Source: an uncultured Mycoplasmatota bacterium (GTDB lineage Bacteria; Bacillota_I; Bacilli_A; RF39; UBA660). From it: DNA of 50,624 nt. Positions 8,437-24,561 of the stretch are shown one piece after another. Every line of letters starts with the position of its first letter. Positions within the stretch are counted from its first letter, which is position 1. The DNA lies in contig CAMMQC010000007.1 of NCBI GenBank assembly GCA_946498975.1, forward strand, positions 1 to 50,624, in the 5' to 3' direction. The position numbers and the translations under genes were made by a program. The notes under the pieces were generated by a model. The model searched no databases. It saw nothing but the letters and a program-made list of their open reading frames with translations, and was not told the origin of the DNA.

Positions 8437-9222
8437 ATGAAGGTAAAAAAGAAAGTTGTACTTATTTTTGGAATTATTGTTATTTTTGTAGTAGCTTGTT
8501 TACTTTTGCTTTATCAGAATTTTAGTAATAGAAGTGATTTTAAAGTGATAGATGAAACTGCTAAGATAAATGAGGCTAAGAAGACGGACTATGATGTTGT
8601 AGGTTGGCTTAGAGTAGAAGGAACTAATATAGATTTGCCTTTGATAGCTAGAAATAATACTGCAGATGTGTCGGTAAGTGATTTTCAGTTTGCTTGGACT
8701 AATTCTTTTCCTGATGAAAAAAGTAATCACTTTACCTATATTTCTCATAATATTAGAAATGTTTCTAAAAATCCGATAGTCGGTGATGATACAATGACTT
8801 ATTTTGAACAGCTTATGTCATTTATCTATCCTGATTTTATTAAAGAAAATCAATTTATTGAATTTACTGATCCTAATGGAGAAACTTCTATTTATAAAAT
8901 TTATGCAGTTGCTTTACTTGAGGATTCGCAGGAGAACTCATATTATGATACTTATACTGATGAAGAACTTCGAGATTATATTAAGCAAGCGAAAGATGAG
9001 AGTATGTATACTATGAATGTTGATGTTAGCTCTGATGATATGTTACTTACTTTATATACTTGTACTAGGTTTTATGGTGGAGGAGATACATATTCATTTA
9101 GAGTAGATGCTAGAGAATTACGGGAGGGTGAAAATATGAAGTATTCTACGGTTGAAGTTAATGATAATTACAAAGTAATTGAAGAGAGAATGAAAGAAGG
9201 TGAAAATAATGAAGAAGCTTAA
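8437..9222 (+). CDS. Class B sortase
   Basis: This 261-residue protein has an N-terminal membrane helix (about 7-27) and a sortase domain with the catalytic set: H104 in YISHN, C209 in LYTCTR, and R222 in the closing FRVDAR strand. Spacing and the long insertion between His and Cys fit class B, whose members attach special substrates to the wall or polymerise pilins. It lies between the Ig/DUF6273 protein and the large Cys-rich protein; neither shows an obvious sorting signal. It overlaps the next gene by 14 bases, suggesting coupled translation. Confidence 0.88.
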   Translation: MKVKKKVVLIFGIIVIFVVACLLLLYQNFSNRSDFKVIDETAKINEAKKTDYDVVGWLRVEGTNIDLPLIARNNTADVSVSDFQFAWTNSFPDEKSNHFTYISHNIRNVSKNPIVGDDTMTYFEQLMSFIYPDFIKENQFIEFTDPNGETSIYKIYAVALLEDSQENSYYDTYTDEELRDYIKQAKDESMYTMNVDVSSDDMLLTLYTCTRFYGGGDTYSFRVDARELREGENMKYSTVEVNDNYKVIEERMKEGENNEEA

Positions 9223-12010
9223 ATTATTAATAGTACCATTAGTTTTTCTATCTGCCTTTTTTGGTGTTTGGTTATCTAATCTTGATAATGTTGATGCTGC
9301 AAATAATGAAACTTGTCAGGCTACATGGCTTAGAGATAACATTGTTCTAAATATAAATCTTGAATATGATGGTAATACGGCAATACTTACTAATAATTCT
9401 GGGGTTAATTTAGATTATAGGTTTGTTCCAGATGGTATTGAAGAAAATTCTACTTTAAGTAGATTTAATGCTGGTGATACTATAAGATTAACTGTTGAAA
9501 ATGGTGGGGCAATATATTTCTATCTTGTTGATGCTATTGATGATTCTTGTATAGCGGAAGCCGGTACAGAAATAGGTATCATACAAGTTAATACTGAAGG
9601 ACTTATGGATAATCCACTTTATTATGATTCTATTTGTACTAATTATCGTAATAAATGGGGAAATAATCAAGTAATGCAAAATGCTGTTCCATATTGTTAT
9701 CAAACTCAGACTTATAGTTCTTATTCAAGAGAAGAAGTCCAAGGTTGGATTGATACAGCAGAGTCTTTATATGAAAGTATGAATTCTGGTAGTGATACTG
9801 ATATTACTATAGATAGTTCGTATAAAGAAGTTACTGATGTTAAAAATACTGAAAAACTTGTTTGTGATGCATTTAGTACAAATAATTATGAAACTATGCA
9901 TAAGTATTATCATATAGGTACTGAAGATGATGGTGCTGGGTGTAAAGTTACTTGTAAAGAAGAAATAGAGGTTAACTTTAGTGATCCTGTGGCAACTCAA
10001 GCTGGTTTGTGTTTTCAATATTTAATTGAAATTAAATCTAAAGTAACTTGTGATGGTAGTTATAGTGCTCCTGTTCCAACAAGAAAACAAGTATGTTATC
10101 CAGCTCCTTATTGTGCTTCTGGTAGTTGGTCTGGTGATGTAGGTGGCCCAAATGAAGATTTTGATAGTTGTATATCAGAATGTGATGGTGGTGAGTATTC
10201 TCAGAAATGTATTGATAGTTGTTATAATAAAGTTTATGTAAATGCTAAGACAACAAAAACTTCTAATGATAAAGAATTTACGCAAGAGGATGTTATTTCC
10301 TTGTCACCATTTTATAATCCTAATGATAGTTTTTATAAAGCTACAAGACTAGCTAATAGTTGTCCTGGTACTAGTAATGCTCAAGCATTATATGAGTATA
10401 TGCAAAAGAATCCTAGTGGACATTATAGTGCAGGAAAATGGATTTCAGATTATGGTACAGGTAGTACTAGTATTTGTGCTTTAGGTCCTTATTATTTTAG
10501 TAGTCTTGGACAGACACAACGAACAATAAATTTATATAATGGTAATCTTTCATATAGTAATAGTAATGGAAGATATTATCCTGATGGTAATGGTATTTTA
10601 AGACAAAATTATGGTAGTACTTATTGTGATGATGCTTGTTATTGGTCTGGTACTTGTGGTTCAAATACTGTTTTAACAGAAACACTTGCTCAAGAGCAAT
10701 ATGAAAAAGAAGTAGAAGAATATATAGCTAAAAAACAAGCTTGTGAACAAAAAGCTGCTGCTTGTACTAATGAGACTACAAGTTATGAGATTGTTGTTAA
10801 TAATGTTGATAATGATAATAATACTGATGATGATCAAGAGACATTCTCTTCTTCACAAAAATTAAATGGTACTACTGTTACTGGTGATTTTCCTAGTATG
10901 GTTACGCTTACAGATGGTTCATGTGAGGATGGAGAAAATGATCCTTGGCATTATCATAATATAATTACATTCCCTGGTACATGGATTAATAATAAGACAG
11001 GTTTACCTGTTCATTCAATGGATCCAGATCATGAAGACTTCTATACTTACGTTGGTAATGAATTTTGTACTAAGTTAAATTCAGTTCCAGTTAATACAGC
11101 ATGGTATGATTGGAAAGTTAACCAAAATGGTGATCCTAATGCTCTTACAGATAGTCAAAAGCAAGAAATAGAAGATGCAACTGAGATGAATATTAATGGC
11201 CATATTGATAATTATGGTTACTTTGGTTGGAATTTTGATGTTAGTTGTTTCTATGCTTTAGATAATCCCTCACCATGTAATCCTGATGATCCAGGTTGCA
11301 CTCCAGGTGGTGAGGAAGTAAATCCTGGATGCTCTCCAACTGATTCTAACTGGCCAGATTGTGATCCTGATCCTGGTGACGTAGAAGAAACTCCAATAAA
11401 TTATTATGATTATAGAACTATTTCTCTTGACAATTTATTCCCAGATAGAGTTACACCTACTAGTTCTTCTGATACTAGTAAAGATGTAGTAGCATCTAAC
11501 TTGATAAATGAAGTTGAGAGTTTAAAAAATAATGATTTTGTCCAAGTCGCTGATACTAATAGTAGAGCGATAGGATTTAACTGGACTTGTGCAGCGACTA
11601 ATTTAGAGAATCCGGATTATTTAGTTCAACCTGTAACTTTAATAAATCAAATTCAAGCTCTGGGAGATACTATTTATGAAGGGGATAGATATCTTGATTA
11701 TCATATTGTTCTTACTCCTGAAACAATGAATAAAATTAGAAAATACAATTCTAATTATGATAGTTATGCTGAACCTACTGCTGATGATACTGATGAAGTA
11801 TTAGTAGCAGGTAATGATAAAACATCAGGAATTACTGTTTACAAGAGTTATTTACTTCATAAGGTTCTTAATAGTAATGAATTATTAGAGAGTGGATTAA
11901 TTGGATGTAATAATGAAGATGATGGTGCTTGTGTTAATGTTGTTGATACTACAACTAGTTGTTATAACGAATATATGGCACAATCTGCTATCTTGAAAGG
12001 AGCTGAATAA
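9209..12010 (+). CDS. Large secreted cysteine-rich protein of the pilus/secretion locus
   Basis: This protein of 933 residues has a clear signal peptide (MKKLKLLIVPLVFLSAFFGV, cleavage probably after the VDAA near 30). The mature part has many cysteines, long polar Asn/Ser/Thr/Tyr stretches, a short helical region near 500-520, and a Pro/Asp/Cys linker (CNPDDPGC and similar) near 690-720. No C-terminal hydrophobic anchor or LPXTG-like motif is visible. I start at ATG 9209, about 8 bases after AGAAGG, not the GTG at 9200. Length, export and position suggest an adhesin or tip protein. I do not recognise a family. Confidence 0.6.
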   Translation: MKKLKLLIVPLVFLSAFFGVWLSNLDNVDAANNETCQATWLRDNIVLNINLEYDGNTAILTNNSGVNLDYRFVPDGIEENSTLSRFNAGDTIRLTVENGGAIYFYLVDAIDDSCIAEAGTEIGIIQVNTEGLMDNPLYYDSICTNYRNKWGNNQVMQNAVPYCYQTQTYSSYSREEVQGWIDTAESLYESMNSGSDTDITIDSSYKEVTDVKNTEKLVCDAFSTNNYETMHKYYHIGTEDDGAGCKVTCKEEIEVNFSDPVATQAGLCFQYLIEIKSKVTCDGSYSAPVPTRKQVCYPAPYCASGSWSGDVGGPNEDFDSCISECDGGEYSQKCIDSCYNKVYVNAKTTKTSNDKEFTQEDVISLSPFYNPNDSFYKATRLANSCPGTSNAQALYEYMQKNPSGHYSAGKWISDYGTGSTSICALGPYYFSSLGQTQRTINLYNGNLSYSNSNGRYYPDGNGILRQNYGSTYCDDACYWSGTCGSNTVLTETLAQEQYEKEVEEYIAKKQACEQKAAACTNETTSYEIVVNNVDNDNNTDDDQETFSSSQKLNGTTVTGDFPSMVTLTDGSCEDGENDPWHYHNIITFPGTWINNKTGLPVHSMDPDHEDFYTYVGNEFCTKLNSVPVNTAWYDWKVNQNGDPNALTDSQKQEIEDATEMNINGHIDNYGYFGWNFDVSCFYALDNPSPCNPDDPGCTPGGEEVNPGCSPTDSNWPDCDPDPGDVEETPINYYDYRTISLDNLFPDRVTPTSSSDTSKDVVASNLINEVESLKNNDFVQVADTNSRAIGFNWTCAATNLENPDYLVQPVTLINQIQALGDTIYEGDRYLDYHIVLTPETMNKIRKYNSNYDSYAEPTADDTDEVLVAGNDKTSGITVYKSYLLHKVLNSNELLESGLIGCNNEDDGACVNVVDTTTSCYNEYMAQSAILKGAE

Positions 12011-12011
12011 T

Positions 12012-12470
12012 ATGAACAAAGCGATGTTAGTTCTTGGTATTATCCTTTTAGCTGTTATTACTTTTGGAGTTGTTAATATTCTTCAAAATTATCAGACTGG
12101 TAATGAATTAGACTATTATTTATTAAGAGAAACAGCAGAAGCGGCAATGACTGATGCAGTTGATGTTGGTTATTACCGCTTAAGCGGTTTGCTTAGAATT
12201 GATAAAGAAAAGTTTGTTGAAAGTTTTATTAGACGTTTTGCTCAAAATGTATCTAATAGTAGAACTTATGATATTGGTTTTTATGATATAAATGAAACAC
12301 CACCTAAAGTTAGTATTTTTGTTAAGTCAGATACTGCTGCTAGTATTAATGGTGAATCTGTTGAACTTACTAATAGGATAAATGTAATATTGGAATCTAG
12401 ATATTATGAGAATAAGTACGTAACGGATATGACTAGAGCAGGCAAACTTGATTATAGTGATGTTGATTAA
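12012..12470 (+). CDS. TadE-like minor pilin candidate
   Basis: This 152-residue protein has a short N-terminus, one membrane helix (about 5-25) and a polar outer domain. The layout is like TadE/TadF pseudopilins of Tad systems: a hydrophobic segment, then a conserved acidic helix (ELDYYLLRETAEAAMTDAV). The start overlaps the end of the upstream gene region, with AAGGAG inside the last codons of the Cys-rich gene. The next gene, 20 bases downstream, is CpaB-like, which supports a pilus role. The family assignment rests on layout and context rather than strong motifs. Confidence 0.55.
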   Translation: MNKAMLVLGIILLAVITFGVVNILQNYQTGNELDYYLLRETAEAAMTDAVDVGYYRLSGLLRIDKEKFVESFIRRFAQNVSNSRTYDIGFYDINETPPKVSIFVKSDTAASINGESVELTNRINVILESRYYENKYVTDMTRAGKLDYSDVD

Positions 12471-12490
12471 TAAGAATAAGGAGGGATTTT

Positions 12491-13315
12491 ATGAATAATT
12501 TATTTGTTGGAATTAAGAAATTTTTAACTAATAAAAACACTGTTACTGTCGTTGGTGTAATAATTGCTATTATAGTACTCTATGTTGGTTATAATATGCG
12601 TATTAATCAAGCGATTACACCTGTTACAGTGCCTTATGCACTTGAGGAAATTAATCCTCGAACTCAGATTACAGAAGATATGATTGGTACTATGGAAATT
12701 CCTAATTCTATGGTTAATGATAATATTATTACTAATAGTGCTGATATTATTGATATGTATTCTAATGGTGATAGTGTTATTCCTGAAGGTAGTTTGTTTT
12801 ATAGAAGAAGTGTTGTATCTCGTGAACAATTACCTGATAGTATAATTTTAGATTATCCTAAAGGATATGTCTTATATAACTTAGATGTTGATATGGCTAG
12901 TACTTATAGTAATTCTATTTATCCTGGTAATTATATTGATATTTATTTAAAAGTTCAAAATGCAGAAAATGCTGAGGGTACTATTGTTACTGATGATAGA
13001 ATTATGGTTGGTAAATTATTATCTAATGTTAAAGTTCTTGCTGTATTTGATAGTAGTGGTAATAATGTTTTTGCAAATTTAGAAGAAAAGACTGTTCCAT
13101 CTCAGATTATATTTGCTATTCCAGAAGAGTATCATATATTGCTTCGTAAGGCTAGTTTCTTAAGGGCATATGAATCTGAGATTATACCTGTTCCTACAGC
13201 TGAGTCATTAGAAGATGAGCCTGGAGATGTAACTTTATCTAGTGAAGATTTAAGAAACTTTATTAATAATGTAACTGCAATGACTGAAGAAGATTTAGCT
13301 TATACACAACAATAA
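12491..13315 (+). CDS. cpaB: CpaB/RcpC-like SAF-domain pilus assembly protein
   Basis: This 274-residue protein has an N-terminal membrane helix (about 17-36) followed by a SAF domain (VPYALEEINPRTQITEDMIG; later MYSNGDSVIPEGSLFYRRSV) and a second beta domain with the CpaB-type run through PGNYIDIYLKV. CpaB proteins sit on the outer face of the membrane and support Tad pilus assembly; in Gram-negative bacteria they contact the secretin, which is absent here. AAGGAGGG precedes the start, and the CpaF ATPase gene follows 16 bases later. Confidence 0.8.
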   Translation: MNNLFVGIKKFLTNKNTVTVVGVIIAIIVLYVGYNMRINQAITPVTVPYALEEINPRTQITEDMIGTMEIPNSMVNDNIITNSADIIDMYSNGDSVIPEGSLFYRRSVVSREQLPDSIILDYPKGYVLYNLDVDMASTYSNSIYPGNYIDIYLKVQNAENAEGTIVTDDRIMVGKLLSNVKVLAVFDSSGNNVFANLEEKTVPSQIIFAIPEEYHILLRKASFLRAYESEIIPVPTAESLEDEPGDVTLSSEDLRNFINNVTAMTEEDLAYTQQ

Positions 13316-13331
13316 AGGAGTGATTTAGGAT

Positions 13332-14537
13332 ATGAACGATTCCATATTTGATAAGTTGGATTTTGGATTTTTTGAGCCTTTAATTAAAGATGATGATATT
13401 ACAGATATTTCATATTGTAATCATGGACAAATATGGGTTCGTTCTTTAACTCAAGGTTCTAAGAGAGTTGAAATTGAAGGCATTAATGATACTTTTGTAG
13501 AAAAATTAGCATTTCAGTGTTCTAATGTTATGGGAACTACCTTTAATAATGCTAAACCTTTTCTTGATGCTGAGTCTACGGAACTTCGTCTTAATTTTGT
13601 TCATGATTCTATTGCAACTAATGGAATAGCAGTTGTTATTCGTAAGACACCTGCTAAGATTAGATTATCTAGAGAGAAATTACTTAGTGAGGATTATTTT
13701 ACTGCTAATATACATGATATTTTATTAAAATGTGTTGAAGGGCATTGTAATATTATGGTAAGTGGTGAGACTGGTTCTGGTAAGACGGAGTTTGTTAAAT
13801 ATTTAGCTAGTCATACTAAAGAGAATGAAAAAATTATTACAATCGAAGATACTTTGGAACTTCATTTAGATAAGATATTTCCTCATCGTGATATAGTTGC
13901 TATGAAAACTAATAATGTAGCTAGTTATTCCGAGGTCCTTGTTACTTGTATGAGACAAAACCCTAAGTGGATTTTGTTATCAGAGGTTCGTAGTGCTGAA
14001 GCGGTTACAGCTGTTCGTAACTCTATATCATCAGGACATAATATTTTATCTACAATTCATGCTGATAAAGCTAGTGCTATTCCTTATCGTATGTATTCAC
14101 TTTTGGAAAGTGATATAGATGTAGATCAGTTTTTAACTACGATATATAGATATATTCAATTAGGTGTTCATATTAAAGCATACTATAGTAAAGAATATGG
14201 TAAATTTCATCGTGAAGTTGATGAAGTAGTAGAATTTTATGTTGATGAGAATAATAAGCCGCAGTCTCATATCCTTTACCAAAAAACATTTGGTAAAGCA
14301 CCAGTTCAAAATATGCCTACTGAGCATTTAAAAGAGTATCTTGAAAATCAAAATATCTTTATTGATAATTTATTTGCACAAGGTGATTCAATGAATAACG
14401 TTGATAACGAAGTCAACAATGTAGTTACTTTTGGTCAACAACCTGTCAATGTAGTGGAATCTCCTAACTTTAATAATATTAATCAGATTAATAATCTTAC
14501 TCAAGTACCATTTTCTAATGATACTGAGATAGTTTAA
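13332..14537 (+). CDS. cpaF: CpaF/TadA-type pilus assembly ATPase (VirB11/GspE superfamily)
   Basis: This 401-residue cytosolic ATPase has Walker A SGETGSGKTE (residues 144-153), the acid motif ITIEDTLELHL, Walker B WILLSEVRSAEA (213-224) and the STIHADKA histidine box (240-247). CpaF/TadA ATPases power extension, and often retraction, of Tad/Flp pili, working with TadB and TadC, which are the next two genes. VirB11 of type IV secretion systems belongs to the same superfamily, so it could also serve the secretion half of this locus. The last 60 residues are an Asn/Val-rich tail not typical of the family. Confidence 0.92.
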   Translation: MNDSIFDKLDFGFFEPLIKDDDITDISYCNHGQIWVRSLTQGSKRVEIEGINDTFVEKLAFQCSNVMGTTFNNAKPFLDAESTELRLNFVHDSIATNGIAVVIRKTPAKIRLSREKLLSEDYFTANIHDILLKCVEGHCNIMVSGETGSGKTEFVKYLASHTKENEKIITIEDTLELHLDKIFPHRDIVAMKTNNVASYSEVLVTCMRQNPKWILLSEVRSAEAVTAVRNSISSGHNILSTIHADKASAIPYRMYSLLESDIDVDQFLTTIYRYIQLGVHIKAYYSKEYGKFHREVDEVVEFYVDENNKPQSHILYQKTFGKAPVQNMPTEHLKEYLENQNIFIDNLFAQGDSMNNVDNEVNNVVTFGQQPVNVVESPNFNNINQINNLTQVPFSNDTEIV

Positions 14538-14553
14538 AGAAAGGAGGGGTTTT

Positions 14554-15447
14554 ATGGTACTGTTTTTATTGCTAATAATTGCTATTATAATTTTATTATA
14601 TAGAAATTATAAGGGACAGAATATTTCTAAATATATTAATGAACAAATGCAAGTTATATATGATAAGTTTGCACCTTACTCTTACAAAGTAGTAAGAGAA
14701 AAGACTAAGCAGTTGGGGCAAGAATATACAGCAAGACAATATCTTATTCAAGTTTTAATTATGGGTGGTTTTGCTTTAGTTGTTACTTATTTATATTTCT
14801 ATAATATAGTAGTATCATTGATTTATGTAGTTATTACAATATCATTTGTGCCTTATTTATCTTTTTTAAGATGTAAAAGAATTTATAGTGAGTTTATATT
14901 TGAACAAGTTCAAATATATACAACTAATGTTATTATGGAATTTGCAACTACACAAAGTTTTGTTAAATCGCTTGAAGGTGTTAGAGATTCAGGAGTTTTA
15001 GAAGATCCTGTTTTAACTGATGTTAATCATATGATTGATATGTCTTATGAAGAGGGAGCAATTGATGGAGCTTTAAAGTTCTTTAGTGATAAGTATCCAT
15101 ATTATATAGTAAAAAATATGCATCAGTTATTTTTACAAATAACTAAAGAAGGTGCTAGAGATACTGGAGAAAGTTTGGAAAATATGCAACTTGATATCGA
15201 TACTCTTGTTGAAAGTGTATATAGAGATAGAATGGATAGAGCGACATTTCATAAGAAGTTTTTGCAATATGGTATTATGTTATTTCTTTTAGTTATGCTT
15301 ATTCAATATATGCTTGGAAGCGATAGTTATGTTGAGTTGATTAAGAGTATTTGGGTTAAGCTTGTACTTCACTTTATTATTATATTTAACTGTTATTTCC
15401 TTTTAAAAGGAGAAAAATATTATAATGAGAATGTGGGGGTTGAGTAA
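14554..15447 (+). CDS. tadB: TadB-like pilus platform protein (T2SSF domain)
   Basis: This 297-residue membrane protein has helices at the N-terminus (1-18), near 65-105 and near 245-290, flanking a helical cytosolic domain. This is the arrangement of TadB/GspF platform proteins, which sit in the inner membrane and couple CpaF ATP hydrolysis to pilin addition. It has an AAAGGAGGGG ribosome binding site and ends 2 bases before the TadC-like gene. Identification rests on topology and gene order, plus a T2SSF-like stretch (EFATTQSFVKSLEGV). Confidence 0.8.
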   Translation: MVLFLLLIIAIIILLYRNYKGQNISKYINEQMQVIYDKFAPYSYKVVREKTKQLGQEYTARQYLIQVLIMGGFALVVTYLYFYNIVVSLIYVVITISFVPYLSFLRCKRIYSEFIFEQVQIYTTNVIMEFATTQSFVKSLEGVRDSGVLEDPVLTDVNHMIDMSYEEGAIDGALKFFSDKYPYYIVKNMHQLFLQITKEGARDTGESLENMQLDIDTLVESVYRDRMDRATFHKKFLQYGIMLFLLVMLIQYMLGSDSYVELIKSIWVKLVLHFIIIFNCYFLLKGEKYYNENVGVE

Positions 15448-15449
15448 TT

Positions 15450-16229
15450 ATGGAAATAGTATTTGTAGCTGCAATAATTTTATTTATTTTAGTTTATAAT
15501 AAAACAATAGATAAAAATCAATTTATTAATGATAATAAAAAGTATTTTGAAATATTAAGAGAGTCTGATTATGATTTTCTAGTTTATGCTAAATATGGTG
15601 ACAGTGCTACTCCTAATGTTTTGTTTCAAAAAAGGGTTCTTTTAGCTATTGGTGTTTTCTTTATATTTATGTTTATATTTATTGATAATGTTACAGCTTT
15701 AAATGTTATACTTGCAATTTTAGTAGCTGGTCTAGTATTTAAAATGCAATATATGCAATTAAAAAAATATTATAAAGCTCACTTGCATCAAATTGATGTA
15801 ATGTTGCCATACTATTTAAAGAGTTTAGAGATATTAATACAACATTATACTGTACCTGTAGCGATTGGTAAAAGTATAAATGATGCACCTGATATTTTTA
15901 AACCCGGTCTTAGAGAAATGATTGAAAAGATTAATTCTGGTGACTCTAGTATAAATCCATATATGGATTTTGCTAATACTTATCCTGTTAGAGATTCTAT
16001 GAGAATGATGCGTCTTTTATATCGTTTAGGTCTTGGAGGACAAGAGAAGAAGCAAGAGAGACTTTTAATGTTTTCAAGAACTGTTTCTAATTTGCAAGCG
16101 AAAGCTAGAGAGACTAAATATAAAGAGCGTCTTGATCGCATGGGAAATATGACTATGATTATGCTTGTTGTAACTGGTGTTAGTGTTATGGTTGTAATAT
16201 TAGCATCAATGTTAACAATGATTGCATAA
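15450..16229 (+). CDS. tadC: TadC-like pilus platform protein (T2SSF domain)
   Basis: This 259-residue membrane protein is the second T2SSF-type platform subunit. It has a leading helix (1-16), a pair near 65-100, a cytosolic helical domain with DVMLPYYLKSLEILIQHY, and a C-terminal helix (MTMIMLVVTGVSVMVVILASM). TadB and TadC normally work as a pair. The start follows GGGGG within the end of tadB, so translation is coupled. The next gene encodes the small pilin and has its own promoter. Confidence 0.8.
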   Translation: MEIVFVAAIILFILVYNKTIDKNQFINDNKKYFEILRESDYDFLVYAKYGDSATPNVLFQKRVLLAIGVFFIFMFIFIDNVTALNVILAILVAGLVFKMQYMQLKKYYKAHLHQIDVMLPYYLKSLEILIQHYTVPVAIGKSINDAPDIFKPGLREMIEKINSGDSSINPYMDFANTYPVRDSMRMMRLLYRLGLGGQEKKQERLLMFSRTVSNLQAKARETKYKERLDRMGNMTMIMLVVTGVSVMVVILASMLTMIA

Positions 16230-16236
16230 AAAAATA

Positions 16237-16265
16237 GTTACAAAATCATAATTATTTGTTATAAT
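16237..16265 (+). promoter_or_regulatory. Promoter in front of the small pilin gene
   Basis: GTTACA (16237-16242), a 17-base spacer and the extended -10 TGTTATAAT (16257-16265) lie about 35 bases before the pilin ATG. A separate promoter for the smallest gene of the locus fits the need for many copies of a pilin. Confidence 0.65.
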
Positions 16266-16299
16266 TGTATTTGTAAGATATGAAAGGAGAGATGTTTTA

Positions 16300-16461
16300 A
16301 TGAAGGAAGCAACTGGGGAGTTAAACATGACTGTAGTAACTATTGTTCTAATTGGTGTTATTACTGCATTTTTTGCAATATTTTGGCCTAATGTTATTCA
16401 ACCAGCGATTGAAAATTCTTGGAATGATAATGTTAATTCTCAAGTTAATACAGTAAAATAA
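16300..16461 (+). CDS. Small Flp-like pilin (53 residues)
   Basis: This gene encodes a 53-residue protein: a short N-terminus MKEATGELN, one long hydrophobic helix (about residues 10-29) and a polar tail WPNVIQPAIENSW ending in NTVK. Size, layout and position between tadC and a TadE-like gene match Flp major pilins. G6 could be the last residue of a leader, but the Glu falls at +1 rather than the usual +5, and no prepilin peptidase gene is in the window. AAAGGAGA lies about 9 bases before the ATG, and a separate promoter precedes it. Confidence 0.75.
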   Translation: MKEATGELNMTVVTIVLIGVITAFFAIFWPNVIQPAIENSWNDNVNSQVNTVK

Positions 16462-16497
16462 TAATTAGATAAGAAATATGTTAGGATGTGATTAATA

Positions 16498-16944
16498 ATG
16501 AGAGATGCAATAGGACAAGTTTTTACTTTACAAATTATATTGGCTTTTGTTCTTTTAATTAATGGTTATATGGCTTATTCTGTTAATTATACTAGAGCAT
16601 TTCGAGTTAAGAATCAAATCATTAATATTATTGAACAATATGAAGGTCCTTATAATGATGAAGCACTTGAGAAAATAAATAGTTATATTAATCAAATAAC
16701 TTATAGTGTTAATAACCAACAATTAATTGATTTTCAAAATGATAATCCTGATGCTGAGTGTCCTAATTATAATGGATGGTGTTATGTTCCTCATGAAGTA
16801 ACTACTAATGATGGTGACGGTGAAAGACAAGGAACTTATTATACAGTTGTTACATTTGTTAATATTGATATTCCTGTAATTAATAATATATTGGGATTAG
16901 GGAATTTTTTAAGAGTTGTGGGTGAAACTAGGACAATCTATTAA
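16498..16944 (+). CDS. Pilin-like protein with N-terminal helix (TadE/F-like)
   Basis: This 148-residue protein begins MRDAIGQVFTLQ followed by one hydrophobic helix (to about 30), like a pseudopilin with a possible leader ending at G6. The outer domain has a helical stretch (AFRVKNQIINIIEQY) and two cysteines (DAECPNYNGWCY). It is probably a minor pilin that primes or caps the fibre. The ribosome binding site AGGATGTG is weak. It follows the small pilin by 36 bases with no terminator between, so the two probably share a transcript. Confidence 0.6.
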   Translation: MRDAIGQVFTLQIILAFVLLINGYMAYSVNYTRAFRVKNQIINIIEQYEGPYNDEALEKINSYINQITYSVNNQQLIDFQNDNPDAECPNYNGWCYVPHEVTTNDGDGERQGTYYTVVTFVNIDIPVINNILGLGNFLRVVGETRTIY

Positions 16945-16966
16945 TAGGAAAAAGGAGGGAATAGAA

Positions 16967-17944
16967 TTGAACGTTATAATTGCTAACGAAGCGAAAGGAA
17001 TACTATCTACTTTAGATATTGATGTTATTAAGAGTGTTGATGGTGTTCATACAGCTGATGAAATTGTTGAAATGTTCAAGAACTTCTTTTATGCAAGAAT
17101 GATTTTAGATGTTACGGCAATTAAAGATTATGAGGATATAACTAATATCCAAAAAATATCTATTGGTCTCGATGCTGATAAAATCATTCTTTTACTTCCT
17201 AATACAGAAGTTTCAACTTCTAGTGCTTACTTATCTAAAATAATTTCAATGGGGATTTATAATTTTACTACTACTGTTGATGGTGTTAAATATTTTTTAG
17301 ATCATCCAAATACTTATAAAGATGTGGCTCATATTCAACAACTTAATGATTTATCTACAACTATTAATGAAAAAGTAGTTTCTGGTTCTAGAATTATTGG
17401 AATTAAAAATATTACTGATCATGCAGGGAGTACTACACTTATTTATATGTTAAAGAAAGAGCTTGAACAGACTTATGGTATGAGTGTAATTGCTATTGAA
17501 GTTAATAGACATGATTTTATGTATTTTAATAGTAATAATATGATTTCAGTTGATGATGAACATTTAATGACTGAGATTGTTAAACATAATGATGTTTCAA
17601 TAATATTGATAGATTTGAATGATTCTAGTAATGAAGGAGCTTGTAACGATGTATTGTATTTGCTAGAACCTTCTAGTATTAGACTTAATAAATTAATGAG
17701 AAGAGATAGGCGAATATTTGAAGAATTAAAAGGTAAGAAGATAGTTTTAAATATGAGTTTACTTTCTAATAGTGATATTATGGATTTTGAATATGAAGGT
17801 AAGACTAAAGTCTTTTATAATATTCCACCATTAAATGATAGAGTTAAGAATCCTGTGCTTGGAGATTTTCTATCTAAGATAGGACTTATTGATAAAACTA
17901 AAGAAAAAGATGGAGGAAAAATATTTGGATTATTTAAAAGATAG
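16967..17944 (+). CDS. TadZ/CpaE-like protein with degenerate P-loop
   Basis: This 326-residue cytosolic protein has an N-terminal receiver-like half (about 1-115, with KIILLLPNTEVS) and a MinD/ParA-like half, the architecture of TadZ/CpaE proteins that place Tad machines at a cell site. The P-loop position reads NITDHAGSTT instead of KGGxGKTT, so both lysines are missing and ATP use is doubtful. I choose TTG 16967 as start because AAAGGAGGG lies 8 bases upstream. A longer frame from GTG 16916 would overlap the previous gene and has no site. Confidence 0.7.
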   Translation: MNVIIANEAKGILSTLDIDVIKSVDGVHTADEIVEMFKNFFYARMILDVTAIKDYEDITNIQKISIGLDADKIILLLPNTEVSTSSAYLSKIISMGIYNFTTTVDGVKYFLDHPNTYKDVAHIQQLNDLSTTINEKVVSGSRIIGIKNITDHAGSTTLIYMLKKELEQTYGMSVIAIEVNRHDFMYFNSNNMISVDDEHLMTEIVKHNDVSIILIDLNDSSNEGACNDVLYLLEPSSIRLNKLMRRDRRIFEELKGKKIVLNMSLLSNSDIMDFEYEGKTKVFYNIPPLNDRVKNPVLGDFLSKIGLIDKTKEKDGGKIFGLFKR

Positions 17945-17948: not shown

Positions 17949-17977
17949 TTGACAAATGCTTATAAATTATATATTAT
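17949..17977 (+). promoter_or_regulatory. Consensus promoter of the first VirB2-like gene
   Basis: A perfect TTGACA (17949-17954), a 17-base spacer and TATTAT (17972-17977) lie about 25 bases upstream of the ATG at 18002. It is one of the best promoters in the window. Confidence 0.8.
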
Positions 17978-18001: not shown

Positions 18002-18370
18002 ATGAATATGATGTTAATGAATATGGTACAAATATTAGATGCTGCTAATGCTAATCCTGATTCAGCTTGTAGAGGTTTTGATTTTGTTATTAGAATTATT
18101 AAGAATGGTTTATTTCCTGTTTTACAAATAGGTATACCTATTATTTTGGTTGTTTTAGGTACATTAGATTTAGGTAAAGCGGTTATATCTAGTGATGATA
18201 AAGCAGTTAAAGAAGCACAGTCTAAATTAATTAAGAGATGTATTTATGCAATATTAGTATTCTTTATTGTTACACTTCTTAATTTATTATTTACAATGAT
18301 TGGTAATATTGCTGGAGATGATGCACCTGGATTGCAGTCTTGGAGTGCTTGTTGGAATAGCATTGACTAA
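18002..18370 (+). CDS. VirB2/TrbC-like small membrane protein, copy 1
   Basis: This 122-residue protein has two hydrophobic helices (about 40-60 and 85-108) separated by a short charged loop, DLGKAVISSDDKAVKEAQSK, as in VirB2/TrbC pilins of type IV secretion systems. Two further proteins of the locus (18419 and the C-terminus of 18842) share this loop and layout. It has a GAAGGAGAA ribosome binding site, its own consensus promoter and an immediate terminator, so it may be made in large amounts. Cysteines in the outer parts (SACRG, SACWN) are conserved in copy 2. Confidence 0.7.
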   Translation: MNMMLMNMVQILDAANANPDSACRGFDFVIRIIKNGLFPVLQIGIPIILVVLGTLDLGKAVISSDDKAVKEAQSKLIKRCIYAILVFFIVTLLNLLFTMIGNIAGDDAPGLQSWSACWNSID

Positions 18371-18377
18371 TATTTAA

Positions 18378-18402
18378 ATAGCAATTAAATTGCTGTTTTT
18401 TC
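18378..18402 (+). terminator. Terminator or attenuator after VirB2-like copy 1
   Basis: A 7-bp stem (ATAGCAA / TTGCTGT with one wobble pair) is followed by a T-run. It lies 8 bases after the stop and before copy 2, so it probably reduces transcription into the following genes. Confidence 0.65.
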
Positions 18403-18418
18403 TTTAAGGAATGATGAT

Positions 18419-18757
18419 ATGGTTCAATTATTAGATAGTATAGTAAATGTTGATAGTGCTTGTTATGGGTTTGACTTTTTAGTAAGGATTATTAAAGATG
18501 GGGTATTTCCAATCTTACAGATAGTTATACCTATTATTTTATTAGTACTTTGTACATTGGATTTAGGTAAGGCAGTGCTTAGTAGTGATGATAAAGAAAA
18601 TAAGAAGCTTTTAAAAAGAATTGTTAGAAGACTTGTTTATGCTATATTAATTTTCTTTTTTATAACTGTTCTTAATTTAATATTTACTATGGTTGGTAAT
18701 ATTACAGACAATGAGACTTTATCAAGGTGGAGTCAGTGTTGGAATAATCCTATGTAA
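18419..18757 (+). CDS. VirB2/TrbC-like small membrane protein, copy 2
   Basis: This 112-residue protein is clearly related to copy 1: same start of the domain (DSACYGFDFLVRIIKDG), same first helix, the loop DLGKAVLSSDDKENKK, second helix and ending WSQCWNN. The gene order and the divergence (far from identical) point to an old tandem duplication with separate roles, for example major and minor subunits of a T4SS fibre. AAGGA precedes the start by 8 bases. A terminator follows. Confidence 0.68.
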   Translation: MVQLLDSIVNVDSACYGFDFLVRIIKDGVFPILQIVIPIILLVLCTLDLGKAVLSSDDKENKKLLKRIVRRLVYAILIFFFITVLNLIFTMVGNITDNETLSRWSQCWNNPM

Positions 18758-18772
18758 AAATATTTAGTTTAG

Positions 18773-18800
18773 AATAGCAATTTAATTGCTATTTTTCTTT
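18773..18800 (+). terminator. Terminator after VirB2-like copy 2
   Basis: A perfect 8-bp stem AATAGCAA / TTGCTATT (18773-18780 and 18786-18793) with a TTTAA loop and a T-run. It is nearly the same sequence as the terminator after copy 1, which suggests that the duplicated unit included it. Confidence 0.75.
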
Positions 18801-18805
18801 TGTAA

Positions 18806-18814
18806 TGGTATACT
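18806..18814 (+). promoter_or_regulatory. Extended -10 promoter for the third VirB2-like gene
   Basis: TGGTATACT (TG, one base, TATACT) lies just after the terminator and about 28 bases before the ATG at 18842. Confidence 0.5.
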
Positions 18815-18841
18815 AATATCATGATTGAGGTGGAACTTAAT

Positions 18842-19750
18842 ATGAAGAAGAAAGTTTTGGCTATTGTATTAGTTATTGGTGTTTTAGTTTTTAATATAAT
18901 TACTGTTGAAGCTGATGAGTCTGAAAATGCAGTTAATTTATCAGGAACTTCTGTTAATTGTGATTATGGTAACGGTCGTGTTTTCACTAATGAGGATGGG
19001 GAATTAAGTGGTTCTTTTATTAGTAATGGTCTTAGTTGTAATAAAACAGTTTCTTATGAAGCAGGTGAGTGTCCTGCTTACGTTTTAGTTCAAACTCCTC
19101 ATGATGGTACTTGTAGTATTACTTTTTCTGAAACGAAAAGAACAAATTCTTATGCTAGATTACAAAGAAAAACGGAAGGATGTTTTTACTATTCACAAAA
19201 TGTTAGATATACTTTTACTAGAAATGGGAATGAGTGGGATGTAATTATGAATCCAGATCAAGGTAGAAGTGTTGATATTGCTGATAGTCTTAATGATGTA
19301 GATACATGTCCTGAAACTATTTATATTAGTTTTCCAACTGGTAATGTTGTACATTTTGATTTGAGTTCTGGTACTGGTAATAATGGTAGTAATAGAAATG
19401 AAGATCCTGATGATGATTGGGAATACCTTGAAGAGGGATTAAATAGGGAAGATTTTGATGACCCTGGGGTAGAATGTAATGATATTATTGATATAAATGA
19501 TCCTGGTTCTGTAGGTTGGATACTTTATACAATATTAAATTATATAAAAATAATAGGACCTATTTTAGTTGTTTTGCTTAGTGCGATAGATTTTATAAAA
19601 GCAGTTGTTGGTTTTGATGAGAAAGCTATGAAAGAAGCTCAATCTAAATTAGTTATTAGATTAGTTGCTGCTATATGTTTATTTTTAGTACCTACTTTAG
19701 TACAATTATTATTGTCATTTATTAATGCCACTACTTGTACTTTACAGTGA
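18842..19750 (+). CDS. Exported protein with C-terminal VirB2/TrbC-like module
   Basis: This 302-residue protein has a signal peptide (MKKKVLAIVLVIGVLVFNII), a Cys-containing outer domain to about residue 190, an acidic linker (NEDPDDDWEYLEEG) and a C-terminal pair of helices around the loop DFIKAVVGFDEKAMKEAQSK, the same module as in the two small genes upstream. It therefore looks like a VirB2-type subunit with a large outer domain. I start at ATG 18842, which has GAGGTGG about 10 bases upstream, rather than at 18821, which is at the likely transcription start. Confidence 0.65.
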   Translation: MKKKVLAIVLVIGVLVFNIITVEADESENAVNLSGTSVNCDYGNGRVFTNEDGELSGSFISNGLSCNKTVSYEAGECPAYVLVQTPHDGTCSITFSETKRTNSYARLQRKTEGCFYYSQNVRYTFTRNGNEWDVIMNPDQGRSVDIADSLNDVDTCPETIYISFPTGNVVHFDLSSGTGNNGSNRNEDPDDDWEYLEEGLNREDFDDPGVECNDIIDINDPGSVGWILYTILNYIKIIGPILVVLLSAIDFIKAVVGFDEKAMKEAQSKLVIRLVAAICLFLVPTLVQLLLSFINATTCTLQ

Positions 19751-19855: not shown

Positions 19856-21901
19856 ATGTTTTGGAATGATCCAGGTTTTATATCTGAATTTTTAAGAGGT
19901 TTTTTTTCTGTATTAGATAGTATAGGATATTTCTTTTTGAATGGTATTTTTAATATATTTTTTATTATTGCAAATGCTAGTTTTTTTCAAGGTGATGTTA
20001 TAGATACCTTTTATTTGAGAATACAAATGATATTAGGTATTTTTATGATTTTTAGATTAACTATTACCTTCTTACAGATTATTGTGAATCCTGATTTATT
20101 CAAAGATAAACAAAAAGGTGCTGCTTCTCTTGTTAAAAGAATTGCAATTATGTTAATCTTATTATCTGTTATTGTACCTATTGATATTCAAAATACAAAT
20201 GGTAATCCTTTAAATGAACAAATTAAGAACAATGGTATATTATTTGGACTTTTATATCAATTTCAAAATAGTGTTGTTGAAGATAATATTTTAGGTAAAT
20301 TAATTCTTGGATCGGGAACTGCGAGTACAGCTTCAAATTCTGGAGGACTTCAACTAAATGGTATGCAAAATGTTGGTGATGTTATTACTTCAGATATTGC
20401 TAAAGCCTTTATTACCCCAACTTTAAATGATGGCTATGATGATATAACAGCTGCTAATTATGAAGAGGCTGCAGCTTGTCCTGATATTGTAGGACCTTAT
20501 TTTAATCCTTTAGTTACTTCTGGAGCATTATTAGACCATATAAATGATACTTGTAATGCAAATGGAGAAACATATGCTTTTAGTTATACAGGATTTGGTG
20601 GTGTAGTAGTTGCTATTGTAATGACTATTATAATAATAGGCTTTACTTTAGATGTTGCTGTTAGGGCTATTAAACTTGCATTATTAAGATTAATTGCCCC
20701 TGTTCCTATTATTTCTTATATTAGTCCAGGCCAAGAAAAAGATGGAGCTTTTGGTAACTGGGTTAAGACATTAACTTCTACTTATTTAAGCTTGTTTATT
20801 AGACTAATAATTGTTTATTTTGGTATATATTTAATAATATTATTGCGTGAAGGCAATTTAGTTACTTGGGTTGGAACTTCTAGTTTTATTACAAGTGCAT
20901 TAGCGAATATATTTATTATAATTGGTATTTTAGTATTTATGAAAGATGCTCCTAAGTTTTTCCAAGATATGTTAGGTATCAAAGGAGATGGAAAATTATT
21001 TAGTGGTATTGGTACTATGTTAGGAGCTGCTGCTTTAACTGGAGGACTTGCTGGTTCTTTTGCTACAGGTTATAGGGCTTATAGAGAGGAACGCCCAGAT
21101 GATGAGAGTTCATGGAATCCGCTTCGTGGTCTTGGAGCTGTAGGTGCTGGTGTTACAAGTGCTTTTGGTGGTGCTTTTGTTGGTGCTAAAGCTCTTGCTA
21201 CTTCTGATAAAAATAGAACGGGAGCAGTATTCTCAGCAATGCAAAAAAGAAATGCTGTAAGAGCTTCTGGTTCTACTTTATTTGGGCGAGCAAGTGCAGG
21301 TGCCTCTGCTATTTTTGCTGGTCAAGCTCAAGGTGCCCATGATGAGAAATTACTTGAAGTCTATGACAATGTTACTAAAGCAGCTAAAGCTCATAAAACT
21401 ATGGCTGAAGAGGAAGCTTTAAAAGATATGAGTGCTACTGGATTTTATGTTATGGGAAAAGATAGTTCTGGTAATGATATTGTACTTGAAGGTAATTATC
21501 AACGTATAGTTAGTCAACTTCAACAGGCTAGAGCAGAAAGTAGAAATTATATTGACTTGGATAATGGTACTAGGATTAATGATATTGATAAAATTGACCC
21601 TAACGTTCTAGAAAAATTAAAAGAGTCTCAAACTGCTAACTATTTAATTGCACAATCTAAACTTAAGCCAGAAGATAGAAATGCTAAACTTGTTGGTACA
21701 GCAGAAGAACTTGATTATGCTACTGAGGTTGCACAAATGGATGTTGATGCTTATGATTTATCTTCTATTAAGCAACAAGGTATTGGTGTTTCTATGACTA
21801 ATGCACGTCATATTAGAGCAAATCGTAAACGTCAAAGATATATTGCTAACAGTAGAGCTATTGGTGGCCCTCCTCCAGGTGGTGGAGGCAGACCACATTA
21901 A
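19856..21901 (+). CDS. VirB6/TrbL-like T4SS channel protein
   Basis: This protein of 681 residues is strongly hydrophobic in its first 380 residues, with about six or seven helices and the conserved core RAIKLALLRLIAPVPIISYISPG typical of TrbL/VirB6 channel subunits. After the last helix a long soluble tail (from about 400) starts with Gly/Ala-rich segments and continues with charged helices, ending in GGPPPGGGGRPH. VirB6 proteins form the inner-membrane conduit of type IV secretion. Start 19856 is chosen from the promoter position; 19823 is the alternative. Confidence 0.82.
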   Translation: MFWNDPGFISEFLRGFFSVLDSIGYFFLNGIFNIFFIIANASFFQGDVIDTFYLRIQMILGIFMIFRLTITFLQIIVNPDLFKDKQKGAASLVKRIAIMLILLSVIVPIDIQNTNGNPLNEQIKNNGILFGLLYQFQNSVVEDNILGKLILGSGTASTASNSGGLQLNGMQNVGDVITSDIAKAFITPTLNDGYDDITAANYEEAAACPDIVGPYFNPLVTSGALLDHINDTCNANGETYAFSYTGFGGVVVAIVMTIIIIGFTLDVAVRAIKLALLRLIAPVPIISYISPGQEKDGAFGNWVKTLTSTYLSLFIRLIIVYFGIYLIILLREGNLVTWVGTSSFITSALANIFIIIGILVFMKDAPKFFQDMLGIKGDGKLFSGIGTMLGAAALTGGLAGSFATGYRAYREERPDDESSWNPLRGLGAVGAGVTSAFGGAFVGAKALATSDKNRTGAVFSAMQKRNAVRASGSTLFGRASAGASAIFAGQAQGAHDEKLLEVYDNVTKAAKAHKTMAEEEALKDMSATGFYVMGKDSSGNDIVLEGNYQRIVSQLQQARAESRNYIDLDNGTRINDIDKIDPNVLEKLKESQTANYLIAQSKLKPEDRNAKLVGTAEELDYATEVAQMDVDAYDLSSIKQQGIGVSMTNARHIRANRKRQRYIANSRAIGGPPPGGGGRPH

Positions 21902-21921: not shown

Positions 21922-22245
21922 GTGAATAATTATTTAATCCCTGCAAATACAAAGAGTGGTCAACTTATTCTTGGTTACTTTAAACCTTTCGATTTGATAT
22001 TGTTAGGAACTGGAGTCTTAATTTCTCTTGTCTTGTTGATGACTTTTCCAATGTCTTCTAATTGGCAAGTTATTATTGTGGTTTTACCCGGTTTAATTTC
22101 TGCTTTTCTTGTTATTCCTATTCCTAATTATCATAATATTTTAACTATAATTATAGAGTGTTACAATTTCTTTACAAATAGAAGAAATTATGTATGGAAA
22201 GGTTGGTGTGTTAAAGATGTCAAAGATGTCCAAAGTAGCAAGTAG
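21922..22245 (+). CDS. PrgI/VirB3-like T4SS membrane protein
   Basis: This 107-residue protein begins with the PrgI-family pattern (YLIPANTKSGQLILGYFKPFDLILLG) and has two close hydrophobic helices (about 25-45 and 50-70). PrgI proteins are the Gram-positive counterpart of VirB3 and lie next to VirB4 genes, as here. Translation starts at GTG, with AAAGGAG 11 bases upstream. The gene overlaps the next by about 29 bases. Confidence 0.8.
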   Translation: MNNYLIPANTKSGQLILGYFKPFDLILLGTGVLISLVLLMTFPMSSNWQVIIVVLPGLISAFLVIPIPNYHNILTIIIECYNFFTNRRNYVWKGWCVKDVKDVQSSK

Positions 22246-22774
22246 TCAGTATACTGAAGATTGGTTGCCTATTACTGGTATACAAAATGGTTATATAATT
22301 TGTGAAGGTAAACAGAAAGTTACTGGAGTTAAAATTACTCCTCGTAATATATTTATCCTTGATCAACAAGATCAAGATAATGTAATGATTAGTCTTAAAA
22401 ACTTTTATAATATGATAGACTTTGAATTTTGGTTAGTTGTTGCAGATAGGCCTGTTGATATATCAGTTTATATGTCACAATTGCAATTATTATATAATGA
22501 TGCAACCTCTCCTGCTATACGTAAACTTATATTACAAGATATAGATAAGGGTAATATGTTTATGAATAATAATATTGTTGATACCGAGTACTTTATTTTA
22601 TTTAAAGATACTAGTGAAGATGTATTACAGAAACGTGTTAGAATGCTTATTAATGGTCTTGCAAGCTGTGGTTTAAATGCTTCACAAGTTAGTAATGATG
22701 ACTTAAGAATAATTTTAGAAAACTTCTTGAATGGGGGAGTTAATACTGAGTTTGGGACGGTGATGCCTGTATGA
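22217..22774 (+). CDS. Separate N-terminal domain of VirB4 (TraC/TrsE-like)
   Basis: This 185-residue soluble protein starts SQYTEDWLPITGIQNGYIICEG and carries the strand-helix pattern of the N-terminal domain found before the ATPase in VirB4/TraC proteins (DFEFWLVVADRPVDISVYMSQL). It has no P-loop. It overlaps the ATPase gene by four bases (ATGA), so the two are translated together and probably form one functional VirB4. The start is uncertain: ATGs at 22217 and 22226 are both possible, and a frame from 22190 exists. Confidence 0.7.
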   Translation: MSKMSKVASSQYTEDWLPITGIQNGYIICEGKQKVTGVKITPRNIFILDQQDQDNVMISLKNFYNMIDFEFWLVVADRPVDISVYMSQLQLLYNDATSPAIRKLILQDIDKGNMFMNNNIVDTEYFILFKDTSEDVLQKRVRMLINGLASCGLNASQVSNDDLRIILENFLNGGVNTEFGTVMPV

Positions 22775-24561
22775 GTATAAGTATAAAAAGTCAATTAGCA
22801 CCTAAAGGATTACAATTTAATCCAAGTGATTTCTTTATAAGTGATAAGTATGCAACGATACTGTCAGTTATATCTTATCCTCGTTTTATTGCACCAGGTT
22901 ACTTATCAACCTTAACATCTATGAGTGGTATTAAAATAGTTATTAAACATATTCCTGTACCATTTAGTACTATGTCTAAGATGATAAATAGACAAGTTGC
23001 TGATTTACGTGAGAAGTATCGTCAAGAAAAAGATCAAACTGCTAAAGAGAGAATTAGACAAGATGCTGAAAGTTTGGAATCATTTGTATCAATGCTTGCG
23101 TCTAGTCAATCTCGTATCTTTGATTTTCAAATGCATATTATGATAAATGCTGATACTAAGGAAGATTTGGAATTAAAAAAAGTTAATGTTAAAAACTATT
23201 TAGATGCAATGGAACTTAGAGCGGTGTCTTTACGTTTTGAACAAGAGAAAGTTTTGAAGAGTATTTTACCAATCTTTCCTAGTCAAGATATAGAAGAACG
23301 TGTTGGTACTCCTATTCCTTCTCCTACTATTGCAGCGATGTATCCTTTTATCTTTGATAGTATTAAAGATCCAGGGCTTTCTGTATTACTTGGAGTAGAT
23401 TTCTCTGGAGGAGTTATCTTGTTTAATCAATTTCTTTATCAAATTAGAAAAGAAAATAATAGAAATAATGCTAATATGATTATTCTTGGTACTTCTGGTA
23501 GTGGTAAAAGTACGGCTGCTAAATTACTTCTTAGAACGCATATTAGAAATGGTTGTCAGATAGTGGCCATTGATCCTGAAAATGAATTAGAAGAGATGAC
23601 TAGAACTTTTGGGGGAGATACCATTGATATTGGTAAAGGTGGGGAGTATGGTCTTATTAATCCATTAGAAGTTATTATTGATGCTGATGATGAAGAGATT
23701 TCTCAGGGATTAGGTTATACTGTTTTAACTCGTACTTTACAATCTCTTAGAGCATTTATGAAGTATTATGATCCATCTATTGAAGAAGATGTTTTAAATA
23801 TGTTTAGTGAGATTGTTCAAGATACATATAAAAGATTTGGCATAGATTTTAATACTGATTTTTCTAACTTTACTTCAGCTGATTATCCAACATTCTCTGA
23901 TGTATATGCTACTATTAGAGGTAGACTTATGTCTTTGACAGAACAGACTCGTGAAAAAGATATTATTCAAGCTTTAGAACTTAAAATTAGACCTTTAATA
24001 AAAGAGTTAAAATTCTATTTTGATGGTAAAACAACAATTACTGCTGATAGTGATTTTATGGTCTTTAATATAAAAGAATTTATGAATTCTGATACTAATA
24101 TTAGAAATGCTTTATTCTTTAATGTATTAAAATATGCTTGGGGACTTTGTCTTGATTCATCTGTTAATACAATATTAATGGTAGATGAAGCGCATGTTTT
24201 ACTTGGTACTAATAATGAACAGGGAGCTGACTTCCTTGCTCAAGTACAAAGACGTGCTCGTAAATATAATACTGGAACAATAATAATTACTCAACAACCT
24301 AGTGATTTTTCTAGTCCTGCTATTATAACTCAAGGTAAGGCAATATTTGATAACTCATCATATTATCTAGTTATGGGACTTAGAAAACAGGCAGTAGAAG
24401 ATTTATCATTACTAATAGATTTAAATGAGAATGAAAAAGATAGTATTAAACGTTATTCTCAAGGTGAAGCACTGTTTGTTTGCGGTAATAGACGTATGAG
24501 AATAAATGTTGTTGTTACTCAAGAAGAATTAGAGTCATTTGGTAGTGCTGGTGGTTTTTAA
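22771..24561 (+). CDS. virB4: VirB4-family T4SS ATPase
   Basis: This 596-residue ATPase has Walker A IILGTSGSGKSTAAK (about 237-251), an IDPENELEEM motif just after it, and Walker B TILMVDEAHVLLG near 468-480, followed by the ITQQPSDF region. These are hallmarks of VirB4/TraE/TrbE ATPases, which power assembly and substrate transport in type IV secretion. About 200 N-terminal residues form the rest of the partner-binding domain; the front part is encoded by the overlapping upstream gene. Confidence 0.92.
   Translation: MSISIKSQLAPKGLQFNPSDFFISDKYATILSVISYPRFIAPGYLSTLTSMSGIKIVIKHIPVPFSTMSKMINRQVADLREKYRQEKDQTAKERIRQDAESLESFVSMLASSQSRIFDFQMHIMINADTKEDLELKKVNVKNYLDAMELRAVSLRFEQEKVLKSILPIFPSQDIEERVGTPIPSPTIAAMYPFIFDSIKDPGLSVLLGVDFSGGVILFNQFLYQIRKENNRNNANMIILGTSGSGKSTAAKLLLRTHIRNGCQIVAIDPENELEEMTRTFGGDTIDIGKGGEYGLINPLEVIIDADDEEISQGLGYTVLTRTLQSLRAFMKYYDPSIEEDVLNMFSEIVQDTYKRFGIDFNTDFSNFTSADYPTFSDVYATIRGRLMSLTEQTREKDIIQALELKIRPLIKELKFYFDGKTTITADSDFMVFNIKEFMNSDTNIRNALFFNVLKYAWGLCLDSSVNTILMVDEAHVLLGTNNEQGADFLAQVQRRARKYNTGTIIITQQPSDFSSPAIITQGKAIFDNSSYYLVMGLRKQAVEDLSLLIDLNENEKDSIKRYSQGEALFVCGNRRMRINVVVTQEELESFGSAGGF

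Follow-up and report, generated by a model that had tools for sequence, protein, structure and literature searches.

Two-helix pilin-like modules and exchangeable exported heads in a combined Tad and type IV secretion locus of gut Bacilli related to Candidatus Onthousia

The DNA analyzed here, referred to below as the window, is a stretch of 50,624 nucleotides that is part of a contig in an AT-rich genome of 1.5 Mb. The nearest named relatives of the source genome are Candidatus Onthousia, gut Bacilli that are known from metagenomes. A continuous block of genes on the + strand begins with a sortase and a large exported Cys-rich protein, followed by a Tad-like block, three genes that are called here M1, M2 and M3, a VirB6/TrbL protein and a PrgI/VirB3-like protein. 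After these come VirB4 in two open reading frames (ORFs), an M23-type peptidase, two small membrane proteins, an NlpC/P60 protein, a lipoprotein and VirD4. Genes of the block without a cited profile match were named from sequence inspection, and this includes all the Tad names except TadA (PF00437, 7.4e-28; TIGR03819, 5.8e-32). The PrgI/VirB3-like call was made from size, position and synteny, with no profile match. VirB4 is matched by NF045975 (1.2e-103) and its split into two ORFs is also found in relatives. The features that are needed in the following are:

8437-31740, + strand: continuous gene block, from profile matches and otherwise sequence inspection
12012-17944, + strand: Tad-like block 5' of M1 (CpaB, TadA, TadB, TadC, TadE-like, CpaE/TadZ-like)
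17949-17977, + strand: predicted M1 promoter, TTGACA-17-TATTAT, 11/12 consensus
18002-18370, + strand: M1, 122 aa, two-helix T4SS_pilin/VirB2-like module (AF2 model; present in syntenic loci)
18376-18398, + strand: hairpin and T-run 3' of M1, a putative attenuator that resembles an intrinsic terminator, -7.9 kcal/mol
18419-18757, + strand: M2, 112 aa, diverged duplicate of M1 with a more basic loop (tree; gap scan)
18771-18795, + strand: hairpin and T-run 3' of M2, overlapping the M3 promoter, -8.9 kcal/mol
18786-18814, + strand: predicted M3 promoter, -35 TTGCTA, 17-nt T-rich spacer, extended -10 TGGTATACT
18842-18913, + strand: predicted M3 signal peptide (MKKKVLAIVLVIGVLVFNIITVEA), from the sequence with V22 and A24
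18914-19471, + strand: M3 ectodomain, head family T5, Cys-rich, predicted to be beta-rich, exchangeable
19472-19750, + strand: M3 C-terminal pilin-like module, with Cys flanking the hairpin on both sides (alignments)
19856-21901, + strand: VirB6/TrbL-like protein, partner gene (PF19597, 5.6e-10; NF045848, 1.8e-08)
21922-24561, + strand: PrgI/VirB3-like protein and split VirB4 (ORFs 22190-22774 and 22771-24561)
29518-31740, + strand: VirD4-like coupling protein (NF045973, 2.1e-90, above cut-off; PF02534, 5.9e-58)

About 30 Onthousia genomes share the synteny of the whole block, and in them the order M1-(M2)-M3-virB6-prgI-virB4 lies beside the Tad block. The part around M1 is found in other genera as well, and a profile of the M3 module matched 269 of the 288 genomes sampled from the order. 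A search with the relaxase profile PF03432 revealed no relaxase in the Tad/T4SS locus; matches above the cut-off were sporadic, being limited to 12 of 35 genomes and lying on other contigs, and the source genome has one weak match on contig 12. The Tad and type IV secretion locus has the appearance of a machine fixed in the chromosome and not of a mobile element. The joining of a Tad-like block and a T4SS block with VirD4 and a split VirB4 in one chromosomal locus is a hybrid that deserves attention in its own right. Between TadC and the TadE-like gene there is a small ORF of 53 aa (16300-16461, MKEATGELNMTVVTIVLIGVITAFFAIFW...), shorter than the ORFs that were listed and possibly a Flp-like pilin of the Tad block, and the exported Cys-rich protein beside the sortase (9200-12010, 936 aa) is syntenic in the genus and has no Pfam match. 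Elsewhere in the window, an ORF with repeats of the ISAKGLGSLQNIGGDAYFDSL type (41322-43397) is located between genes for parE/gyrB-like and parC/gyrA-like topoisomerase subunits, and an IS66-like transposase ORF (46806-48401, - strand) lies close to the right end.

M1, M2 and M3 are open genes with homologous two-helix modules, as a sequence-only reading of this DNA had proposed: a search of the same genome with M1 as the query returns M2 (E 4.5e-42) and M3 (E 3.4e-11). In the AF2 model of M1 (mean pLDDT 74) the helices span residues 27-63 and 66-103. The same reading saw one loop shared by all three modules. It is entire in M1 (DLGKAVISSDDKAVKEAQSK) and M3 (DFIKAVVGFDEKAMKEAQSK), but M2 (DLGKAVLSSDDKENKKLLKR) has only the first half, DxxKAVxxxDxK, in common with them, and KENKKLLKR replaces the second; nearly every M2 of the genus has such a divergent second half. 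Cys23 and Cys117 flank the hairpin and are invariant in 51 M1/M2 proteins, and the Cys before the first helix and the Cys after the second are invariant in 30 M3 proteins as well. Given the signal peptide, the positive-inside rule would place both ends of the module outside, so that the Cys pair could form a disulfide that closes the hairpin. The VxA cleavage site of M3 is nearly invariant (V22 and A24, 30 M3 proteins), and inspection of M1 and M2 by eye showed no obvious cleavable leader. The M3 start is most likely at 18842, judging from a GAGGTGG 8 nt 5' of it and a transcription start predicted at about 18821; a start at 18821 was rejected in view of this ribosome-binding site together with the predicted transcription start. 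Near the locus, on the - strand (4515-4922), a thioredoxin-like lipoprotein with a CSHC motif is encoded, which could aid the conserved disulfides of M1-M3.

The history of the modules was followed in a tree of 113 modules, in which the alignment is short and the inner forks are unsure. A long branch with full support divides the M1-type from the M3-type modules, and both types are present in loci of other genera. All 21 M2 modules form one group (support 99) that is nested within the Onthousia M1 clade. An M2 between M1 and M3 was not found in G010, G017, G019, G021, G024, G028 and G031, and in several Onthousia genomes M1 is directly followed by M3, as in other genera. The tree suggests that the split between M1 and M3 is old and predates the diversification of the order, and that M2 arose by a single later duplication of M1 within Onthousia. 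Since M2 is nested in the Onthousia M1 clade and the M1/M3 pair is order-wide, the 'three tandem modules' consist of an ancient pair to which a young duplicate was added. The duplication that had been read from the window is thus borne out, but it comprises one old event and a second that is far younger.

The likeness to VirB2 that was also claimed is upheld by the operon in which the modules lie and by a signal, specific if borderline, of the profile PF18895 (T4SS_pilin, curated cut-off 26.6 bits), but not by PF04956 (TrbC/VirB2), which at E 0.1 matched none of the three proteins, nor by the fold search, which was uninformative. PF18895 matches M2 of the window weakly (14.1 bits) and gave no match to M1 and M3 at the levels used; weak matches were obtained for 17 of 30 M3 and 20 of 51 M1/M2 proteins. 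Searched against whole genomes, the profile picks M3 modules in many relatives and matched in one of 14 control genomes. For the M3 of G006 the score is 26.7 bits, 0.1 bit above the cut-off, and for the others it is about 20-26 bits. The model NF045849 (Mbov_0395 pilin-like) matches 10 of the 14 control genomes and was dropped as evidence for a pilin. M1 shows traits of VirB2/TrbC in that it is small and has two membrane helices and a charged loop with several Lys/Arg (AF2 model), and it is encoded together with VirB3, VirB4 and VirB6, VirB3/PrgI being assigned from position and size. A sequence search of alignment A1 against solved structures returned nothing credible; the M1 model, in Foldseek and VIA, returned generic and unspecific helical hairpins, with no solved conjugative pilus among the matches. 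The predicted hairpin of M1 fits a pilin, but it fits many other proteins too.

In relatives, module-like proteins are also found outside the T4SS locus (L039:8451-8792, L038:7774-8160, L040:7874-8845 and L032:2545-6302), either as single modules next to ftsA/ftsZ or mltG-type genes or as fusions with C39 or M23 peptidase domains, which suggests a general membrane anchor. The module may accordingly be read as a general two-helix anchor, or as a channel-lining scaffold of the inner-membrane complex of the T4SS, with M3 tethering a receptor or an adhesin beside VirB6 and no filament being formed. Besides these solitary and peptidase-fused modules, the borderline scores of PF18895 and the absence of a pilus from the structural matches speak for this reading. 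However, M1 adjoins M3 and virB6, its near-consensus promoter and the hairpin that follows are as expected for a major subunit, and PF18895 is specific in the whole-genome controls, and we regard an anchor or scaffold of this kind as somewhat unlikely. We hold with moderate confidence that the module works like a VirB2-type subunit. Because modules also stand alone or are fused to peptidases, and because the profile scores are borderline, we liken it to VirB2 without assigning it to that family.

The third gene had been described as the module fused with a large Cys domain. Such a fusion does exist, but its Cys domain belongs to a set of at least nine exchangeable ones. When the M3 heads of the genus (from the signal peptide to the module) were clustered by BLAST at E 1e-4, nine families were obtained, with no detectable similarity between families. 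They are scattered across the module tree, on which T1 needs 7 head changes for its 7 members, T3 needs 6 for 6 and T6 needs 3 for 3. The window's head, T5, is also found in G014, G030 and G032, and in one other genus, where it is 38% identical and sits on a distant module in a row of four before virB6. M3 copies from the same genome have modules that are 83-99% identical under different heads (99% in G030). The model of M3 is of low confidence (pLDDT 57.5), with nine beta strands in the ectodomain, and a fold search with it gave nothing below E 0.3. The occurrence of heads without detectable similarity over closely similar modules, scattered on the tree, suggests that heads move between resident modules or that modules are homogenised within a genome; either way, the sequences point to a conserved socket whose heads can be exchanged. 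In another genus, four tandem proteins that end in the module (403, 324, 293 and 147 aa; L144:9798-13500) are located directly before virB6; three of them have large, differing heads, and the second belongs to the head family of the window.

It might be that the variety of heads is itself the function, with antigens or phage receptors under diversifying pressure and a machine that only displays them. The nine families, the tandem copies with different heads and the swaps between genomes would fit such a display, and variable VirB2/VirB5 copies have been published for the Trw system of Bartonella (PMC12857230). Yet VirD4 and VirB4 are retained and strongly conserved, which speaks for active transport, and the M3 of several other genera is almost headless, with only 129-169 aa. 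Display as the function in itself therefore appears quite improbable.

With respect to expression, all 57 loci (30/30 Onthousia and 27/27 from other genera) have a TTGACA 5' of M1 that is followed at 16-18 nt by a -10-like hexamer, where shuffles give about 0.3 per group. The sequence-only reading had noticed almost the same terminator after each of the first two genes, and near-identical hairpins with T-runs do follow M1 and M2 (18376-18398 and 18771-18795). Nearly all loci have a hairpin and T's 3' of M1, the stems ranging from about -4 to -12 kcal/mol, and in 22 M1>M2 gaps the position of the hairpin is conserved while the stem is variable. The window stems have 2-3 G-C pairs in 10-11 bp, are not G+C-rich and are followed by a U-tract; with so few G-C pairs termination may be weak. 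A consensus terminator scan reported neither hairpin. The hairpin pattern has 3 matches in the window, one palindromic site being scored on both strands, where 0.34 are expected and 2 of 100 shuffles have as many. In the 1.5 Mb genome AGCAATN{1,9}ATTGCT occurs at three sites only, two of which are the hairpins after M1 and M2, and AATAGCAA/TTGCTATT was rejected as the general terminator of the genome.

Each of the three genes was also thought to have its own promoter. This applies to M1 and to M3, but is not borne out for M2: the 48-nt gap between M1 and M2 has no promoter of the sigma-70 kind in any of 22 genomes, and an own promoter for M2 was rejected. As no such promoter was recognised in 22/22 genomes, M2 probably depends on read-through. 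Of the attenuation that had been suggested to set the subunit ratio, the hairpin after M1 is present in nearly every genome, but two points had been overlooked, namely that M2 lacks a promoter and that the M3 promoter overlaps the terminator.

In this overlap, the -35 TTGCTA of M3 is the 3' arm of the terminator and the promoter spacer is its U-tract. The hairpin before M3 reads TAGCAA-loop-TTGCTA, and the extended -10 (TGnTATACT or TGnTATAAT) comes exactly 17 nt after TTGCTA. This arrangement is present in 27 of 28 M1>M3 gaps of other genera (about 0.04 in shuffles), and a looser pattern with 16-18 nt in 13 of 16 M2>M3 gaps of the genus. It is found in none of the M1>M2 gaps, and the complete M3-type pattern occurs once in the source genome. 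Among the recognised hairpins, TTGCTA forms the 3' arm in 48/48 of those before M3, where the 5' arm varies (TAGCAA, TAGTAA, TAGCAT), and in 9/19 M1-M2 hairpins, which no promoter follows; the Fisher p of 4e-7 is overstated as the loci are related, and counts over related loci are not counts of independent events. Some basal Onthousia species and some M3-M3 gaps are outside the pattern. Before virB6 the hairpin is absent in most genomes and a similar promoter is present in 9 of 27. Conservation is poor 5' of the hairpin and 3' of the -10, in an alignment that was selected for the two boxes and in which only the other columns count. That the hairpins act as ordinary terminators between genes and have no part in the subunit ratio, and that the TTGCTA spacing is inherited and has no promoter activity, is very improbable, since for all the shared ancestry of the loci the 17-nt spacer is fixed, with an extended -10 in 27/27 matching loci, the pattern is nearly absent elsewhere in the genome, the constraint on TTGCTA is lost exactly where a promoter does not follow, and the flanks are poorly conserved with the box columns excluded.

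Starting from the homology of the modules, the order-wide synteny, the conserved promoters and hairpins with their overlap and the swapping of heads, all of which are read from the sequences themselves, we can suggest how the three proteins may work together. M1 and M2 would be T4SS_pilin subunits of a fixed Tad/T4SS hybrid and M3 a scarce minor subunit that carries a head, with graded expression, a proposal to which we give about an even chance. The strong M1 promoter would produce mostly short M1 transcripts that end at the hairpin, provided that real termination takes place there, and read-through past this hairpin would give a little M2. M3 would be transcribed from its separate and weaker promoter, with the 3' arm of the terminator as its -35, and would remain scarce. 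The M3 hairpin would be held by the M1 assembly or inserted into it, possibly at the tip, and the head would probably bind the outside world, that is, other cells, surfaces or phage. Plain subunits would then be numerous and headed ones few, as for a fibre or a channel with a rare binding subunit. As a hypothesis only, a polymerase that finishes the M1 (or M2) transcript could recycle onto the M3 promoter, so that the supply of heads is tied to the supply of pilin. A wider form of the proposal would make the pilin-like hairpin a universal socket for interchangeable heads in a monoderm pilus or channel, with the promoter of the headed subunit inside the terminator of the major subunit and polymerase recycling as a possible coupling of their supply; this form we consider doubtful. 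After terminating, the RNA polymerase of E. coli often remains on the DNA and is able to begin again at a nearby promoter in vitro, and recycling from terminator to promoter in vivo is not yet shown according to the authors (PMC6978380, PMC11347151). A promoter inside a terminator would be an extreme case of such a restart, and an overlap that is conserved over many genera offers a natural test bed for polymerase recycling.

According to a review, neither VirB2 nor VirB5 occurs in Gram-positive T4SSs, with the exception of Patescibacteria (PMC12857230), and this counts against the pilin reading of M1 and M2. If the pilin reading is true, the order-wide Bacillota locus would be a second exception after Patescibacteria, and the exchangeable heads would be a means of target recognition for a monoderm T4SS. 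In the part of the literature that was covered, headed pilin-like proteins or a Tad/T4SS hybrid were not found for this order.

Several known systems share part of this arrangement. VirB4 and the VirB6-like protein match the NCBIfam models of the Mycoplasma ICE (Mbov_0395/0396/0397 families) below their cut-offs, but those elements are mobile and the locus here is fixed, and their pilin model NF045849 is unspecific here. The PrgB-type adhesins of Gram-positive conjugation also provide a surface binding domain that serves a monoderm T4SS; PrgB, however, is anchored by sortase through LPxTG, whereas M3 is anchored by a pilin-like hairpin. Like VirB5 of VirB/D4 systems, M3 is an exported T4SS protein, and by analogy its proposed job would be similar (rare, at the tip, beside VirB6), but VirB5 does not have the pilin-type membrane hairpin of M3, and no relation between the two sequences came to light. 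The Trw system of Bartonella likewise has several sequence-variable copies of pilin and tip proteins, which are thought to alter binding and for which diversifying pressure on the VirB2/VirB5 pilus paralogues was proposed; there VirB2 and VirB5 are separate, whereas here module and head are one protein, and the heads are without detectable similarity and not diverged copies. In Patescibacteria, 2-11 VirB2-like pilins are arrayed in systems most of which lack a relaxase (PMC12102498). As in these arrays and in PF18895, small tandem two-helix pilin-like proteins are encoded here beside virB4, virB6 and a virB3-like gene of a chromosomal, usually relaxase-less T4SS. In contrast, the window copies are below the PF18895 cut-off, the host belongs to the Bacillota, a Tad block is joined to the locus, the terminator and the promoter overlap, and one paralogue carries an exchangeable exported head.
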